From Mitsuokella multacida DSM 20544 (GTDB taxonomy: Bacteria > Bacillota > Negativicutes > Selenomonadales > Selenomonadaceae): a stretch of DNA of 64,000 bases. This document shows, one piece after another, positions 5,104 to 46,810 of this stretch. Position 1 is the first letter of the stretch. The number at the start of each line of letters is the position of its first letter. Both the position numbers and the translations under genes were made by a program. The stretch lies in NCBI RefSeq assembly GCF_000155955.1, contig NZ_GG697142.2:219646-283645 (forward strand), given 5' to 3'. The notes under the pieces were generated by a model. It saw only the letters and a program-made list of their open reading frames with translations. It had not been told where the DNA came from and made no database searches.

Positions 5104-5967
5104 ATGTCAGCTCGTATTTTGGAGGGCAAGGTCTTTGCCCAGGCGTTCCGCGAGGATGCGCAGAAGAAAGCCGCAGCGCTTCGCGAGCAGTACGGCGTGC
5201 AGCCGGGCCTTGCCGTCATCATCGTCGGCTCGAACCCTGCCTCGCAGGTCTACGTGCGCAACAAGCACAAGTCGTGCGAGGCGCTCGGCATCTACTCCGA
5301 AGTCATCGAGATGCCCGAGACAACGACGAAGGACGAGCTCATCGCGAAGATCGATGCGCTCAATGCCGACTCAAAGATTCACGGCATCCTCGTACAGCTG
5401 CCGCTGCCCGAGCAGATTGCCGCGCATGAGTCGGAAATCCTCGAGCGCATCCGCCCGGAGAAGGATGTCGACGGCTTCCATCCCGTCAATGTTGGCCGCC
5501 TTGTGACAGGCCAGCCCGGTCTCGTGCCCTGCACGCCTTTTGGCTGCCTGCGCATGCTCGAGCTCGCTGGCATCCCGATTGATGGCCAGCGCGCCGTCAT
5601 CATCGGCCGCAGCAACATCGTCGGCAAGCCGATGCTCCATCTCTTGCTCGGCAAGAATGCGACCGTCACGATCTGCCACAGCCATACGAAGGACCTGCCC
5701 GCCGTCACGCGCGAGGCGGATATTCTCGTCGCGGCCGTCGGCCGTCCGAACTTCGTCACGGCTGACATGGTCAAGCCCGGCGCGACGGTCATCGATGTCG
5801 GCATCAACCGCATCGCGCCGAAGAAGCTCGTCGGTGACGTCGACTTCGAGGCCGTCAAAGATGTCGCCGGTGCCATCACGCCGGTCCCCGGCGGCGTCGG
5901 TCTCCTGACCGTCGCCATGCTCATGGAAAATGTTGTCCGCGCTGCTGAGATGCAGCTGCAGGACTGA
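5104..5967 (+). CDS. folD: Methylenetetrahydrofolate dehydrogenase / methenyltetrahydrofolate cyclohydrolase
   Basis: A bifunctional cytosolic enzyme that interconverts 5,10-methylene-, methenyl- and 10-formyl-tetrahydrofolate using NADP. Typical features are the catalytic Lys segment [14 protein letters not shown] (around residues 50-63), the PLP block (VQLPLPEQI), the nucleotide-binding GRSNIVGKP and the C-terminal [10 protein letters not shown]. 287 aa is normal. Ribosome site GGAAAGGTG upstream of ATG. It precedes fhs by 39 bases, giving a two-gene one-carbon operon. Confidence 0.96.
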
Positions 5968-6006
5968 CATACATAGTGTTTCTCATAGAATGCAGGAGGT
6001 ACAGAA

Positions 6007-7674
6007 ATGAAAACCGATGTTGAGATTGCACAGGAAGCCCAGATGCGCCCGATCCAGGAGATCGCGGAGAAGCTCGGTATCAGCGATGATGAGCTCGAGC
6101 TCTACGGCAAGTACAAGGCAAAAGTCGCACTTTCCGCTTGGGAGCGCGTCAAGGAGCAGCCGAATGGCAAGCTCATCCTCGTGACGGCCATCAACCCGAC
6201 GCCGGCCGGCGAGGGCAAGACGACGACGAGCGTCGGCCTCGCTGACGCCTTCCACCGCCAGGGCAAGAAGGTTGCCGTCGCACTGCGCGAGCCGTCGCTC
6301 GGCCCGTGCTTTGGCCTCAAGGGCGGTGCTGCCGGCGGCGGCTACGCGCAGGTCGTGCCGATGGAGGACATCAACCTGCACTTCACGGGCGACTTCCACG
6401 CCATCACGACGGCGCACAACCTGCTCGCGGCTGTCATCGACAACCACATCCAGCAGGGTAATGCACTCGACATCGACGTGCGCCGCATCACGTGGAAGCG
6501 CGTGCTCGACCTCAACGACCGCGCCCTGCGTCACGTCGTCATCGGCCTCGGCGGCAAGGCACACGGCACGCCGCGCGAGACGGGCTTCGACATCACGGTG
6601 GCCTCGGAGATGATGGCCATCCTCTGCCTCGCGAAGGACCTCGAGGATATGAAGCAGCGCCTCGGCGAGATTGTCATCGGCTACAGCCGCGAGGGCCGCG
6701 CCATCCGCGCGAAAGAACTCAATGTCACGGGTGCTCTGACGCTGCTCTTCAAGGATGCCATCAAGCCGAACCTCGTGCAGACGCTCGAGGGCACGCCGGC
6801 CTTCATCCACGGAGGCCCGTTCGCGAACATCGCCCATGGCTGCAACAGCGTCATGGCGACGAAATTCGCGCTGAAGTTCGCCGACTACGTCGTCACGGAG
6901 GCAGGCTTCGGTGCCGACCTCGGCGCCGAGAAATTCCTTGACATCAAGTGCCGCTTCGCCGGCCTCAAGCCGGATGCTGTCGTCATCGTCGCGACGGTCC
7001 GCGCGCTCAAGATGCACGGCGGCCTCGACAAGAAGGAACTCGGCAAGGTCGACATGGCAGCGCTCGAGAAGGGCCTCGCCAACCTGACGAAGCACATCGA
7101 GAACATCCAGAAGTTCGGCTTGCCGGCTGTCGTCGCCATCAATGCCTTCCCGACGGATACGAAGGAAGAGCTCGACTTTGTCGAGAAGAAGTGCAATGAG
7201 CTCGGCGCGGAAGTCGCGCTGTCGGAAGTCTGGGCCAAGGGCGGCGAAGGCGGACTCGAGCTCGCCGACAAGGTCGTCGAGGCGACGAAGAAGCCGAATG
7301 ACTTCCACTTCATCTACGATGTCAACGAGAGCATCCCGGAGAAGATCGAGAAGATCACGAAAGAGATCTACGGCGGCGACGGCGTAGACTTCACGCCGGC
7401 AGCCAAGAAGCAGCTCAAGGAGATTGAGGAGCTCGGCTTCGACAAGATGCCGGTCTGCATGGCCAAGACGCAGTATTCGCTGTCGGACGATGCGACGAAG
7501 ATCGGACGCCCGACCGGTTTCCGCATCACAGTCAAGGAGCTCCGCATCAGCGCCGGCGCCGGCTTCATCGTCGCGCTGACGGGCAACATCCTGACGATGC
7601 CGGGCCTGCCGAAGCATCCGGCCGCCGAGAATATGGACATCGACGTCAATGGCAAGATCACGGGCCTGTTCTGA
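6007..7674 (+). CDS. fhs: Formate--tetrahydrofolate ligase
   Basis: ATP-dependent formation of 10-formyl-tetrahydrofolate from formate. The P-loop [16 protein letters not shown] is around residues 62-77, and 555 aa matches the bacterial family. AGGAGG lies just before the ATG. With folD and a MetF-type reductase nearby it covers the folate branch from formate to methyl-tetrahydrofolate. In a non-acetogen this supplies purines, thymidylate and methionine. No CO dehydrogenase/acetyl-CoA synthase gene is in the window, so acetogenesis is not supported. Confidence 0.97.
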
Positions 7675-7700
7675 GACTCGCCTCCGATAAGATAAACATG

Positions 7701-7735
7701 AGCCACTGCATCCCTGCGATGCGGTGGCTTTTCTG
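7701..7735 (+). terminator. Intrinsic terminator after folD-fhs
   Basis: 12-bp stem (AGCCACTGCATC / GATGCGGTGGCT, one G-T pair), 5-base loop, then TTTTCTG. Confidence 0.85.
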
Positions 7736-7790
7736 TTACACGAATTCTCGTTTAGCATGAGGATTGTTCGCAGGCTGTGATGTTTACAAC

Positions 7791-7819
7791 TTGACAATCG
7801 TCTGATCCTGCGGTATGAT
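7791..7819 (+). promoter_or_regulatory. Strong sigma-70 promoter for the DASS transporter
   Basis: Consensus TTGACA (7791-7796), 17-base spacer and TATGAT (7814-7819). Transcription should start near 7826, leaving a leader of about 125 bases before the ATG at 7951. Confidence 0.8.
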
Positions 7820-7882
7820 ATCCATACAGATTCATCATAGTACATATGAATATACGATATAAGTGCAATGGCGCACGAGTCG

Positions 7883-7917
7883 TGACAAGGGCAGTCCTGT
7901 CAGAGGTCTGCCTTTTT
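7883..7917 (+). promoter_or_regulatory. Attenuator-like leader with two mutually exclusive hairpins
   Basis: Terminator form: GGCAG (7890-7894) pairs with CTGCC (7908-7912) and CCT (7896-7898) with AGG (7904-7906), followed at once by TTTTT. Alternative form: TGACA (7883-7887) pairs with TGTCA (7898-7902) and GG (7889-7890) with CC (7896-7897), which uses up the 5' arm of the terminator. Just upstream GTGC (7863-7866) can pair with GCAC. The element lies between promoter and ribosome site of a transporter gene. I do not recognise it as a known riboswitch class; the ligand, if any, is unknown. Confidence 0.55.
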
Positions 7918-7950
7918 CTATGCAATCATCTTGCCAGGGGAGGAATCATC

Positions 7951-9417
7951 ATGAAAAAGAATCTGAGTCGCATGGGGCTGCCGGTAGGCTTTCTCGTGCT
8001 CATCCTGCTGCTTTTGGTGCCGACGCCGCCGGACCTCTCGACGGCCGGCCATCGCATGCTGGCCATCCTCGTCTTCTCGGTCATCATCTGGATGACCGAG
8101 GCCGTCGCCTATCCGGTCTCATCGGGTATCATCATGTCGCTCATGGCCTTCCTGCTCGGCACGGCACCCAACATGGTCAACCCGTCGAAGATGCTCGGTA
8201 CGTCTGGCGCCCTCAAGATGGCTCTGGGCGGCTTCTCGAGCACAGCGTTGGCCCTCGTCGGCGCGGCCCTGCTGATTGCGGCGGCGATGATGAAGACGGG
8301 CCTCGACAAGCGTATCGCGCTCGTCGTCCTTTCGAAGATCGGCGCCAAGACACATCACGTATTGGCTGGCGTCATTTGTGTCGGCTTTGTCCTGAGCTTC
8401 TTCGTGCCGAGCACGACGGCCCGCGTCTCGTGCATGGTGCCGATTGTCATGGGCATCATCGCCGTCTTCGGCGTGCCGCGCAAGAGCAAGTTCGCCGCCA
8501 TCATGCTGATCGCCGTGGCGCAGGCCGACAGCATCTGGAATGTCGGCATCAAGACAGCGGCAGCACAGAACATGGTCGCGCTCGGCTTCATCGAGAAGCA
8601 GCTCGGCACGACGATCAGCTGGCTCGACTGGTTCATCGCGGCGGCTCCGTTTGCCGTCATCATGAGCGTGCTGCTCTACTTCGTCCTCTTGAAGCTCATG
8701 CCGCCGGAGATGGAGGAGATTCCGGGCGGCCGGGAGAAGATTGCGCAGGAGCTTTCTGCGCTCGGCCCGATGAAGACGGATGAGAAAAAGCTGTTGCTCA
8801 TCTCAGTCGTGCTGCTCTTCTTCTGGGCAACCGAGAAGATTGTCCATCCGTTTGACACATCCTCGACGACGATTGTTGCTGTCACCTTGATGATGATGCC
8901 GGGCATCGGCATCATGACCTGGAAAGAAGTCCAGGAGCGCATCAACTGGGGCACGCTGCTGCTCTTCGGCGTCGGCATCAGCCTCGGCTCGGCTATCCTC
9001 TCGACGAAGGCGGGTGAGTGGATTGCGCATGTCATCGTCCAGAACTTTGGTCTCTATGATGCGACGGCGACGTTCATCATCGCCATCCTCGCGCTCTTCC
9101 TCATTCTCATCCATCTCGGCTTTGCCAGTGCGACGGCCCTGTCGTCGGCGATGATCCCAATCTGCATCTCCGTCCTGCAGGGTGCGTCGGAGAACATCAC
9201 GCTCAACGTCGTCGGCATGGTCATGATCCTGCAGTACACCATCTGCTTCGGCTTCATCCTGCCGGTCAATGCGCCGCAGAACATGATTGCCTACAGCACG
9301 GATACGTTCGAGGTCAAGGACTTCATCAAGACGGGCATCCCCCTGACGGTGCTGGCCTACTTGACCATCCTGCTGCTGACGAATACGTATTGGAAATGGC
9401 TGGGCCTCGTCCTTTGA
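7951..9417 (+). CDS. DASS (SLC13) family sodium-coupled anion/dicarboxylate transporter
   Basis: A 488-aa polytopic membrane protein of the divalent anion:Na+ symporter family. It has about 11-12 hydrophobic segments, the conserved loop FVPSTTARVSCMVPI in the first half and INWGTLLLFGVGISLG plus GFASATALSSAMIPI in the second, matching the paired substrate/sodium sites of the family. Substrate is probably a C4-dicarboxylate, citrate or sulfate; it cannot be told from sequence. ATG at 7951 is chosen because GGGGAGG lies 8 bases upstream; the frame is open to 7846 but that part overlaps the leader hairpins. It is transcribed alone between two terminators. Confidence 0.85.
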   Translation: MKKNLSRMGLPVGFLVLILLLLVPTPPDLSTAGHRMLAILVFSVIIWMTEAVAYPVSSGIIMSLMAFLLGTAPNMVNPSKMLGTSGALKMALGGFSSTALALVGAALLIAAAMMKTGLDKRIALVVLSKIGAKTHHVLAGVICVGFVLSFFVPSTTARVSCMVPIVMGIIAVFGVPRKSKFAAIMLIAVAQADSIWNVGIKTAAAQNMVALGFIEKQLGTTISWLDWFIAAAPFAVIMSVLLYFVLLKLMPPEMEEIPGGREKIAQELSALGPMKTDEKKLLLISVVLLFFWATEKIVHPFDTSSTTIVAVTLMMMPGIGIMTWKEVQERINWGTLLLFGVGISLGSAILSTKAGEWIAHVIVQNFGLYDATATFIIAILALFLILIHLGFASATALSSAMIPICISVLQGASENITLNVVGMVMILQYTICFGFILPVNAPQNMIAYSTDTFEVKDFIKTGIPLTVLAYLTILLLTNTYWKWLGLVL

Positions 9418-9440
9418 GACATTCCCGCGCTGATTCTTCA

Positions 9441-9468
9441 AGGCTGCCGCTTTGCGGCGGCCTTTTTG
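9441..9468 (+). terminator. Intrinsic terminator after the DASS transporter
   Basis: 10-bp stem (AGGCTGCCGC / GCGGCGGCCT), TTT loop, followed by TTTTG. Confidence 0.88.
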
Positions 9469-9482
9469 TGTGAGTGATGTGC

Positions 9483-9511
9483 TTGCAAAATATGGGGAAA
9501 GACTTTACAAT
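9483..9511 (+). promoter_or_regulatory. Candidate promoter for metF-nfnAB
   Basis: TTGCAA (9483-9488), 17-base spacer, TACAAT (9506-9511), followed by a leader of about 40 bases. Confidence 0.6.
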
Positions 9512-9560
9512 ATGATTGATATATGGTTCTTTTTTGACAAATACACTCCGGAGGGAATAT

Positions 9561-10304
9561 ATGAAACGTATCTCAGTAGAACTTGTTCCGCGTGACGAGG
9601 ACGCCCTGCGTGGGGAGCTCGCCCTGCTCGGCAAGTTCAAGGAGCAGGTCGATGTCATCAACATCCCGGATCTCCTGCGCTTCCCGACGCGCAGCTGGCA
9701 GGGCGCCGCAATCGCCAAGGAATACTTCCCCGAGTCGATGCCGCACATCCGCGCGATGGACATCGACCTCGACAAGGAGCTCGCGATGAAGGACTACCTG
9801 CGCGAGCACGATATCCGCGAGGTCCTCGTCATCGAGGGCGACCCGCCGCAGGACATGATGCACGAGGTCTATCCGACGAACAGCGTCGATGTCATCTGGA
9901 AGTTCCGCAAGGAGATGCCAGAGGTCAAGGTCTACGCTGGCATTGACCAGTACCGCGGCTCGCTCTCGCAGGAGCTCTACCGCATCAAGCGCAAGCTGCA
10001 GGCCGGCGCCGCAGGCTTCTTCACGCAGCCGTTCTTCGACATGCGCTTCCTCTCGGTCTATGCGGACATGCTGCAGGGCCTCGAGGTCTACTGGGGCGTC
10101 TCGCCCGTCATGAGCGCACGCTCGCAGAGCTACTGGGAGCGTAAGAACCATGTCGTCTTTCCGCATGCCTTCGAGCCGACGCTCGACTGGAGCGTGGCAT
10201 TTGCCAAGGAAGTCATGGATTTTGCAGTGCGAGAAGGCAACAATGTCTACCTGATGCCGATCAAGACGAACCTCGAGGCGTATCTCGAGGGTGTTCTTGC
10301 CTGA
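9561..10304 (+). CDS. Short methylenetetrahydrofolate reductase-family protein (MetF-like)
   Basis: A 247-aa TIM-barrel flavoprotein of the MTHFR family, which reduces 5,10-methylene- to 5-methyl-tetrahydrofolate. Family marks are an early Glu in ISVELVPR (counterpart of the catalytic Glu in the usual EFFPP motif), IEGDPP (around residues 91-96) and FFTQPFFD (around 154-161). It is shorter than E. coli MetF (296 aa) and divergent. ATG at 9561 follows GGAGGG. It sits 21 bases before the Nfn-type genes, so the electron donor may come from, or be balanced by, that complex. This coupling is inference. Confidence 0.75.
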   Translation: MKRISVELVPRDEDALRGELALLGKFKEQVDVINIPDLLRFPTRSWQGAAIAKEYFPESMPHIRAMDIDLDKELAMKDYLREHDIREVLVIEGDPPQDMMHEVYPTNSVDVIWKFRKEMPEVKVYAGIDQYRGSLSQELYRIKRKLQAGAAGFFTQPFFDMRFLSVYADMLQGLEVYWGVSPVMSARSQSYWERKNHVVFPHAFEPTLDWSVAFAKEVMDFAVREGNNVYLMPIKTNLEAYLEGVLA

Positions 10305-46088: not shown

Positions 46089-46442
46089 ATAAGTTGTCAG
46101 GACAATCGCGGCAGCCCTCGAGGCTGATGAGGAAAGTCCGGGCTCCACAGGGCAGTGTGCTGGATAACGTCCAGCGAGGGTGACCTCAGGGAAAGTGCCA
46201 TAGAGATTTAGACCGCCTGAGCAATCAGGTAAGGGTGGAAAGGTGCGGTAAGAGCGCACCAGCAGTCAGGTGACTGGCTGGCTTCGGTAAACCCCACATG
46301 GAGCAAGACCAAATAGGGAAGGGATGATGCGGCCCGCGGAACCTTCCGGGTTGAGTCGCTTGAGCCGGCAGGCAACTGCCGTGCCTAGATAAATGATTGT
46401 CACCGCGTGAGCGGAACAGAACTCGGCTTATTGACGACTTAT
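46089..46442 (+). ncRNA. rnpB: RNase P RNA, bacterial class A
   Basis: The catalytic RNA that matures tRNA 5' ends. P1 is formed by ATAAGTTGTCA (46089-46099) and TGACGACTTAT (46432-46442). The universal core is present: GAGGAAAGTCCGGGCTCC near 46128, the GGAAAGTGCCA and TAAGGGTGGAAAGGTG segments, GGTAAACCCCA, and GATAAATGATTGTCACC plus ACAGAACTCGGCTTA at the 3' end. About 354 nt fits the ancestral A type. Confidence 0.97.
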
Positions 46443-46460
46443 AACACGATGCAAGCAATG

Positions 46461-46487: not shown

Positions 46488-46646
46488 CATGTCTGGGACT
46501 AATCTGAAAAGAACCTGAAAGAAATGAGAGCGAACGAGCCGGGAAATGGTTCAAAACAGAAGGCGCACTTTTATCACGTATTTTATTTTCACGAAGTACG
46601 ACGACTCCTGTCGTATGATTATAAATTAGAAATGGGTCTAAAAGAA

Positions 46647-46795
46647 TAAGCTGAGTCCAGCCCAGGAGCGGGGGAACCAAGTTTTTTGGGGTGAACGTCT
46701 GGCTCACGGTGTCAGGCCAAGCGGCCTTCATGGTGAAATAGGCGAGGGTGGTCTTCTCTACCCTAACCCGGCAGCTAACCTCGTAAGCGAAGAGA
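46647..46795 (+). promoter_or_regulatory. c-di-AMP riboswitch (ydaO-yuaA type)
   Basis: The leader of the NlpC/P60 gene carries the hallmark ydaO sequences: AGGAGCGGGGGAACCA near 46664, TTTGGGGTGAA near 46685, a GGGT...ACCC hairpin around 46746-46763 and CAGCTAACCTCGTAAGCG near 46772-46790. In other bacteria the class senses cyclic di-AMP and usually turns off cell-wall hydrolase or osmolyte genes; NlpC/P60 is a typical target. No T-run hairpin follows; the GAGAGAGGAG ribosome site lies directly after the 3' core, so translational control is plausible. Boundaries are approximate. Bases 46488-46646 are A+T rich; a hairpin TACGAC/GTCGTA (46598-46616) and a TATGAT near 46614 may mark the promoter. 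Confidence 0.87.
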
Positions 46796-46810
46796 GAGAG
46801 GAGTGGCTTT

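Follow-up and report, generated by a model that had tools for sequence, protein, structure and literature searches.

What controls a sodium-coupled anion transporter gene that lies behind a leader with competing hairpins is the question raised by this locus. The window, that is, the whole stretch of 64,000 nucleotides that was analyzed, originates from a Mitsuokella genome, and among named relatives the transporter of M. jalaludinii (L037) comes closest, with 96% identity. The assignment of the gene to the DASS family, made in an earlier note from the sequence alone, was confirmed by a PF00939 match at 7.5e-110 and a TIGR00785 score above the cut-off, and LaINDY and VcINDY are the relatives of the protein in the PDB. 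The anion that it transports is probably a dicarboxylate. A separate terminator upstream (7700-7730) sets the DASS unit apart from the formate-THF ligase gene. Transcription is expected to start near 7826, and the leader between the promoter and the gene is about 125 nt long. The promoter, the leader, the terminator, the alternative stem and the small hairpin are all present as they had been described, as seen in the sequence and with RNAfold. The features of the locus are as follows.

7791 to 7819, plus strand: sigma-70-type promoter TTGACA-17-TATGAT, 11 of 12 consensus matches
7854 to 7883, plus strand: outer helix P0, ACGA (7854-7857) with TCGT (7880-7883), from the minimum-energy fold, of moderate confidence
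7863 to 7876, plus strand: ANTAR-type hexaloop hairpin GUGC-AAUGGC-GCAC, conserved with compensatory stem changes
7883 to 7902, plus strand: alternative (antiterminator) stem UGACA (7883-7887) with UGUCA (7898-7902), extendable by GG/CC, from the sequence
7890 to 7917, plus strand: intrinsic terminator GGCAGUCCU-GUCAG-AGGUCUGCC-UUUUU, with counterparts in the DASS leaders of relatives
7936 to 7943, plus strand: ribosome binding site AGGGGAGG, from the sequence
7951 to 9417, plus strand: gene for a DASS-family (SLC13/INDY-like) sodium-coupled anion transporter, 488 aa

The DASS reading frame is open upstream across the entire leader to an ATG at 7846 (7846-9417). This ATG has no ribosome binding site, and therefore the extension is probably due to chance. 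One-carbon genes flank the transporter (5104-10301), namely folD, formate-THF ligase and, on the downstream side, one for a short protein whose residues 58-209 weakly match methylene-THF reductase (36.9 bits). Elsewhere in the window, Rfam matches identify the gene of the RNase P RNA (46090-46445) and, a short way downstream, a c-di-AMP (ydaO) riboswitch (46639-46805).

The leader had been interpreted as a transcription-attenuating riboswitch or a protein-responsive leader, with an ion or a carboxylate as the guessed ligand. A promoter, competing stems and a terminator ahead of a sodium-coupled anion transporter would suit a riboswitch sensing Na+, another ion or a carboxylate. However, the proposed covariance-model search against Rfam, ion-sensing classes included, gave no match at the gathering score, and at a permissive threshold the region 7780-7970 gave chance matches only (E 0.8-2.8), far under the gathering scores. 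No aptamer-like core is conserved; what the leaders keep is a small hairpin in which two loop bases are fixed, and this hairpin is also found ahead of amtB and glnA, as described below. A riboswitch is thus highly improbable. What stands of the former interpretation is a transcription-attenuating, protein-responsive leader with a conserved ANTAR-determinant hairpin and a terminator, while the guess at an ion or carboxylate ligand gives way to probable control by nitrogen via an ANTAR protein.

The small GTGC/GCAC hairpin, which the earlier note had mentioned last, is the conserved and important element. Its arms are 7863-7866 and 7873-7876, which satisfies a stem of at least 3 bp, and its hexaloop has A at position 1 (A1, 7867) and G at position 4 (G4, 7870), closed by the pair C7866-G7873. 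Recognition by ANTAR proteins needs the loop A1, the loop G4 and the top base pairs (PMC3369931).

DASS ortholog leaders from Selenomonadaceae were collected both from named genomes and from genomes designated by handles. Their sequences show near-total divergence, yet almost all contain a promoter, a short hairpin whose loop has six bases, and a terminator, with the promoter in the corresponding place upstream of the gene. In a search without any loop rule, a hexaloop hairpin of 4-6 bp was found in nearly all Selenomonadaceae DASS leaders, in every group. The DASS hairpin is conserved across Negativicutes, and it was found in 2 of 21 DASS relatives outside this class. The stems GUGC, GCGC, AUGC, GUAC, GCAC, GACAC, GUUC and GCUC occur, each with its complement. 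The alignment of ortholog leaders, which had been suggested as a check for covarying pairs, thus revealed compensatory changes in the stem of the hexaloop hairpin. In alignment A2, 91% of the stem cells are paired, versus 63% after shuffling and 29-42% after sliding, and four of the five pairs vary on both sides while the closing pair is constant; the rows of A2 were chosen by the loop rule, so that its constant loop bases are no evidence and the stem pairing alone counts. An A1/G4 loop with a C-G closing pair is present in 25 of 28 DASS leaders, and the other 15 combinations at positions 1 and 4 occur 0-3 times. Among the three leaders outside the rule, one has G at position 1 (L014) and two have shortened or mismatched stems (L020, L021). 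An IRE-like loop (CAGUGN) was considered and dropped, as loop positions 2, 3, 5 and 6 are free to vary. If the terminator and some chance hairpins merely occupied a spacer, there would be no regulation at all, and the alternative stem, which by itself is at chance level, is compatible with this. The loop rule is nevertheless kept and the stems are compensated, and the absence of regulation is hardly credible.

A second A1/G4 hairpin (P1) was sought 2-25 nt upstream of the first, and none was found in the window. Within 25 nt upstream, such a hairpin is present in 1 of 25 DASS leaders and 1 of 22 amt leaders, versus 2.3 and 1.6 expected by chance. In 15 of 16 amt leaders with a measurable promoter, the hairpin begins about 14-29 nt past the -10 box, and therefore there is no space for a second hairpin upstream. 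A scan both upstream and downstream for a canonical second hairpin yielded candidates that are not common to other leaders, namely AGC-AUAGAA-GCU in L019 and GCU-AUAGCA-AGU or UAUCG-ACCGCU-UGGUA in L009, and the canonical arrangement was rejected. The lack of a second A1/G4 hairpin, which experiments on eutP require, counts against control by an ANTAR protein. DASS and amtB leaders both lack P1, and the hairpin is a class-wide single-hexaloop variant.

ANTAR targets elsewhere precede nitrogen genes, and the leaders of ammonium transporter genes were therefore examined in the genomes already used for DASS. They contain one or two units, such as GGC-AAUGGA-GCC or GGAC-AAAGGC-GUCC, in which the 3' strand of the hairpin is the 5' arm of the terminator. 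The regulon was sought by model searches and in individual stretches of sequence. With DASS and amt hairpins as training set, a covariance model (R1) was built, which picks up the window hairpin at 19.8 bits and finds it again in the genome search. On the own genome, R1 recovers both amtB sites, the DASS site, the leader of the glutamine synthetase gene and the leader of an EamA transporter gene. The glnA site, AUGGC-AAUGGC-GCCAU, has an overlapping terminator, so that in this one genome the hairpin occurs with an intrinsic terminator at two amtB sites and at glnA. Neither the glnA site nor the EamA site was in the training set of R1, and both genes were named by eye from the sequence. The E-values of R1 are near 1, as the motif is short, and the weight of these matches lies in their position ahead of terminators and nitrogen genes. 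Four further matches in the own genome (L174, L177-L179) are inside coding sequences without a terminator and were set aside as background. Among relatives, R1 also found sites with terminators before genes whose N-termini, judged by eye alone, point to a symporter of the alanine/glycine type, a xanthine-type permease and a sodium:solute symporter.

Three variants of the element were observed. The hairpin before the EamA-type transporter gene, both in the own genome (L172, C5:3178) and in a relative (L225, G001), is not accompanied by a terminator, and its 3' strand can pair with the Shine-Dalgarno sequence (UCCUG-AAGAG-CAGGA); this suggests a translational version of the switch. Many Negativicutes have two tandem hexaloop attenuators before amtB (L121-L150), of which the first is usually GGC-AAUGAN-GCC and the second GAC-AANGGC-GUC, and such serial switches may make the response sharper. 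In a Pelosinus-like genome, the element between two amt genes (G065:C1:4585818-4585877; L231, L236) is nearly palindromic and its hexaloop hairpin was therefore matched on both strands.

The genome of Mitsuokella has a single ANTAR gene. Its product is a response regulator in which PF00072 and PF03861 were matched, and the adjoining gene encodes a kinase with the PdtaS GAF domain (PF12282) and HisKA_2. The ANTAR protein matches Rv1626/PdtaR (1S8N) at 6e-61 and EutV at 2e-46. In the crystal structure of EutV with RNA, G4 is flipped out against Tyr164, and Arg142, Lys149 and Glu160 hold it (PMC8934654). The residues R142, K143, K149, E160, Y164, M172 and R175 are identical between EutV and the Mitsuokella protein, and among them R142, K149, E160, Y164 and M172 contact G4 in EutV. 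The changes K147 to R and, at two RNA-contact positions, N173 to M and R177 to T count against control of the leader by this protein. The window leader, an A1/G4 hairpin in a genome with an ANTAR protein, has the features of a single-hexaloop ANTAR site.

The distribution of the element was compared with that of ANTAR genes. An attenuator was defined as a hairpin C[A..G..]G whose stem has at least 3 bp and whose 3' strand is used by a terminator. Where the genome has an ANTAR gene, 50 of the 54 leaders of amt and glnA contain such an attenuator, while other loop rules gave 0-5 and simulated sequences 2%. Attenuators of amt were found in 37 of 37 cases with an ANTAR gene versus 2 of 5 without a match over the cut-off (Fisher p 0.0009), and those of glnA in 13 of 17 versus 2 of 9 (Fisher p 0.014); the genomes are related, and these p-values overstate the independence of the data. 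The two amt exceptions without an ANTAR match are from genomes that are 87% and 63% complete, while the two glnA exceptions are closed genomes of one genus, g30 (G031 and G052), in which no ANTAR protein was detectable over the cut-off. Their glnA leaders (L186, L187) retain the A1/G4 attenuator hairpin TGGC-AGCGTT-GCCG, and its regulator is either an ANTAR protein too diverged for detection or another one. Nitrogen genes thus have a common element that co-occurs with ANTAR genes, with one exceptional genus.

This genus is also an argument against the ANTAR reading, and it bears on whether another RNA-binding protein, happening to need the same loop bases, reads the hairpin. Besides g30, the absence of the canonical dual hairpin would agree with such a protein. 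However, the loop determinants, the closing pair, the nitrogen genes and the co-occurrence of genes all fit ANTAR biology, and in the ANTAR-less genus g12 the amt attenuator is absent in three of three genomes. A different protein is accordingly judged quite improbable. Control by ANTAR in response to nitrogen, and not a riboswitch, is the preferred reading because of the A1/G4 determinants, the hairpins of amtB and glnA, the single ANTAR protein and the co-occurrence.

The terminator of the window leader folds with a probability of 0.97 (RNAfold). Its arms GGCAGUCCU and AGGUCUGCC occupy 7890-7898 and 7904-7912 and are followed by U7913-7917; a U.U mismatch keeps it off the list of the default terminator pattern scan. 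The fold of the whole leader is better than that of shuffled sequence (z -2.8). Competition between the terminator and the alternative stem, the core of the former proposal, holds in that both stems are present and that UGACA/UGUCA overlaps the 5' arm of the terminator, forming with a probability of about 0.8 in a shortened transcript. Compared with shuffled linkers, however, the stem by itself is at chance level (z -0.35), which counts against the preferred reading; the competition is the least certain part in Mitsuokella. The same chance level was found for L037, L007, L008 and L014-L016. The alternative stem is strongest in L011 (z -2.9) and weaker in L009, L010 and L013, and these four leaders have a common GCUUG/CAGGC-type alternative helix. 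The stem was dropped as strong evidence, being at chance level in the window and in several other leaders.

Between helix P0 and the hexaloop hairpin that it encloses lies an asymmetric internal loop, and L009-L013 have analogous outer helices of different sequence. Once the transcript is just past 7902, the P0-hexaloop hairpin in the fold directly abuts the UGACA/UGUCA stem, a layout that is also found, with other sequences, in L037, L009-L011 and L013. In L007 and L012, the 3' strand of P0 is the 5' strand of the antiterminator. The hairpin of the window leader is separated from the terminator by 13 nt and does not overlap its 5' arm. When the hexaloop hairpin was forced, the probability of the terminator was unchanged, a further point against the preferred reading, and direct competition between hairpin and terminator in the window leader was rejected, as it is not seen thermodynamically. 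In the Selenomonas ruminantium group and in distant genera, hairpin and terminator overlap: in L019, GGGGUACAUCGUG pairs with CAUGAUGUGCCC, and L094, L092 and L047 are similar. Because of this overlap, binding should prevent termination in these leaders.

These observations are consistent with the following mechanism. Transcription from near 7826 would end by default at the terminator at 7890-7917. The hexaloop at 7863-7876 is the predicted binding site of the sole ANTAR protein of the genome, which is PdtaR/EutV-like and would be controlled by the PdtaS-like kinase; the signal of the kinase is most likely nitrogen limitation. The phosphorylated regulator would bind the hairpin and let RNA polymerase read through into the transporter gene. 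In most relatives, where the 5' arm of the terminator is the 3' strand of the hairpin, antitermination would be direct. In Mitsuokella, read-through could depend on stacking of the P0-hexaloop hairpin onto the UGACA/UGUCA antiterminator, an arrangement that the bound protein would keep until the polymerase has passed, or through bound protein acting at the RNA exit channel. The DASS gene would be co-induced with amtB and glnA, and uptake of an anion, probably a dicarboxylate, would be matched to ammonium assimilation. An ANTAR-controlled attenuator that co-induces DASS, amtB and glnA in a nitrogen regulon is, as a whole, held to be likely.

The sign of the effect and its coupling to the terminator are the weakest part of this model. 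The ANTAR protein may bind leaders of the window type and yet promote termination or have no strong effect, since the hairpin is off the terminator and the supporting P0 helix competes with the antiterminator. The unchanged terminator under the forced hairpin and the double use of the P0 strand in L007 and L012 favor this. However, the overlap with the terminator in S. ruminantium-type and distant DASS, amt and glnA leaders implies antitermination, and a common sign is to be expected throughout a regulon. A reversed or weak effect is thus considered unlikely, and antitermination by the ANTAR protein is preferred.

ANTAR antitermination is a textbook two-hairpin device. The target RNAs of the eut, nas and ami operons are dual-hexaloop antiterminators, and eutP needs both hairpins at the right distance (Ramesh et al. 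2012, PMC3369931). The window leader resembles these targets in its A1/G4 hexaloop on a short stem with a constant top pair, followed by an intrinsic terminator, and in the regulon of nitrogen-metabolism genes and the ANTAR response regulator with a kinase. It differs in having one hairpin instead of two, located 13 nt ahead of the terminator and not inside it, and the DASS transporter is a new target gene. The second hairpin was tested for and is absent; therefore, the window leader is not a member of the dual-hexaloop family and is read as a single-hexaloop variant of ANTAR attenuators.

EutV binds a single hexaloop at a time, either hairpin alone with similar affinity, and the EutV dimer cannot hold both hairpins simultaneously, as indicated by the structure with RNA; the minimal ANTAR motif was redefined as a single hexaloop, and the breadth of its use was left as a question (Walshe et al. 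2022, PMC8934654). The window leader agrees with this minimal site, one A1/G4 hexaloop in a genome with an ANTAR protein. In that study, antitermination was seen only when two hairpins were correctly spaced, whereas in Negativicutes single hairpins precede terminators class-wide. In a literature search that included few subscription papers, nothing came up on a dicarboxylate transporter under ANTAR control in Negativicutes, and PMC8934654 was the only paper on a "single hexaloop" with ANTAR; the 2012 survey may already list some amt or glnA sites in its supplementary tables of hits.

In comparison with ion or carboxylate riboswitches in Rfam, the window leader is similar in that a leader with a terminator precedes a transporter gene, and differs in lacking a family match and an aptamer-like conserved core. 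The mycobacterial PdtaS/PdtaR (Rv1626) system is the same protein pair by sequence (kinase with PF12282 GAF_PdtaS; 1S8N, E=6e-61), while the predicted RNA targets in Negativicutes precede nitrogen genes and consist of single hairpins with terminators. A function is suggested for the conserved PdtaS/PdtaR-like pair of this class, which is rich in gut and rumen anaerobes, and uptake of an anion, probably a dicarboxylate, would be linked to ammonium assimilation there. It is reasonably probable that Negativicutes have a nitrogen regulon controlled by ANTAR antitermination with a single hexaloop per terminator and no recruitment hairpin, comprising transporters for ammonium and other nitrogen sources, glutamine synthetase and the DASS anion transporter, and that the dual-hairpin rule of eutP is not general. 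The single hairpins of Negativicutes make the single-hexaloop question directly testable, with natural controls in the genomes that have neither an ANTAR gene nor an attenuator, and with the tandem copies before amtB.
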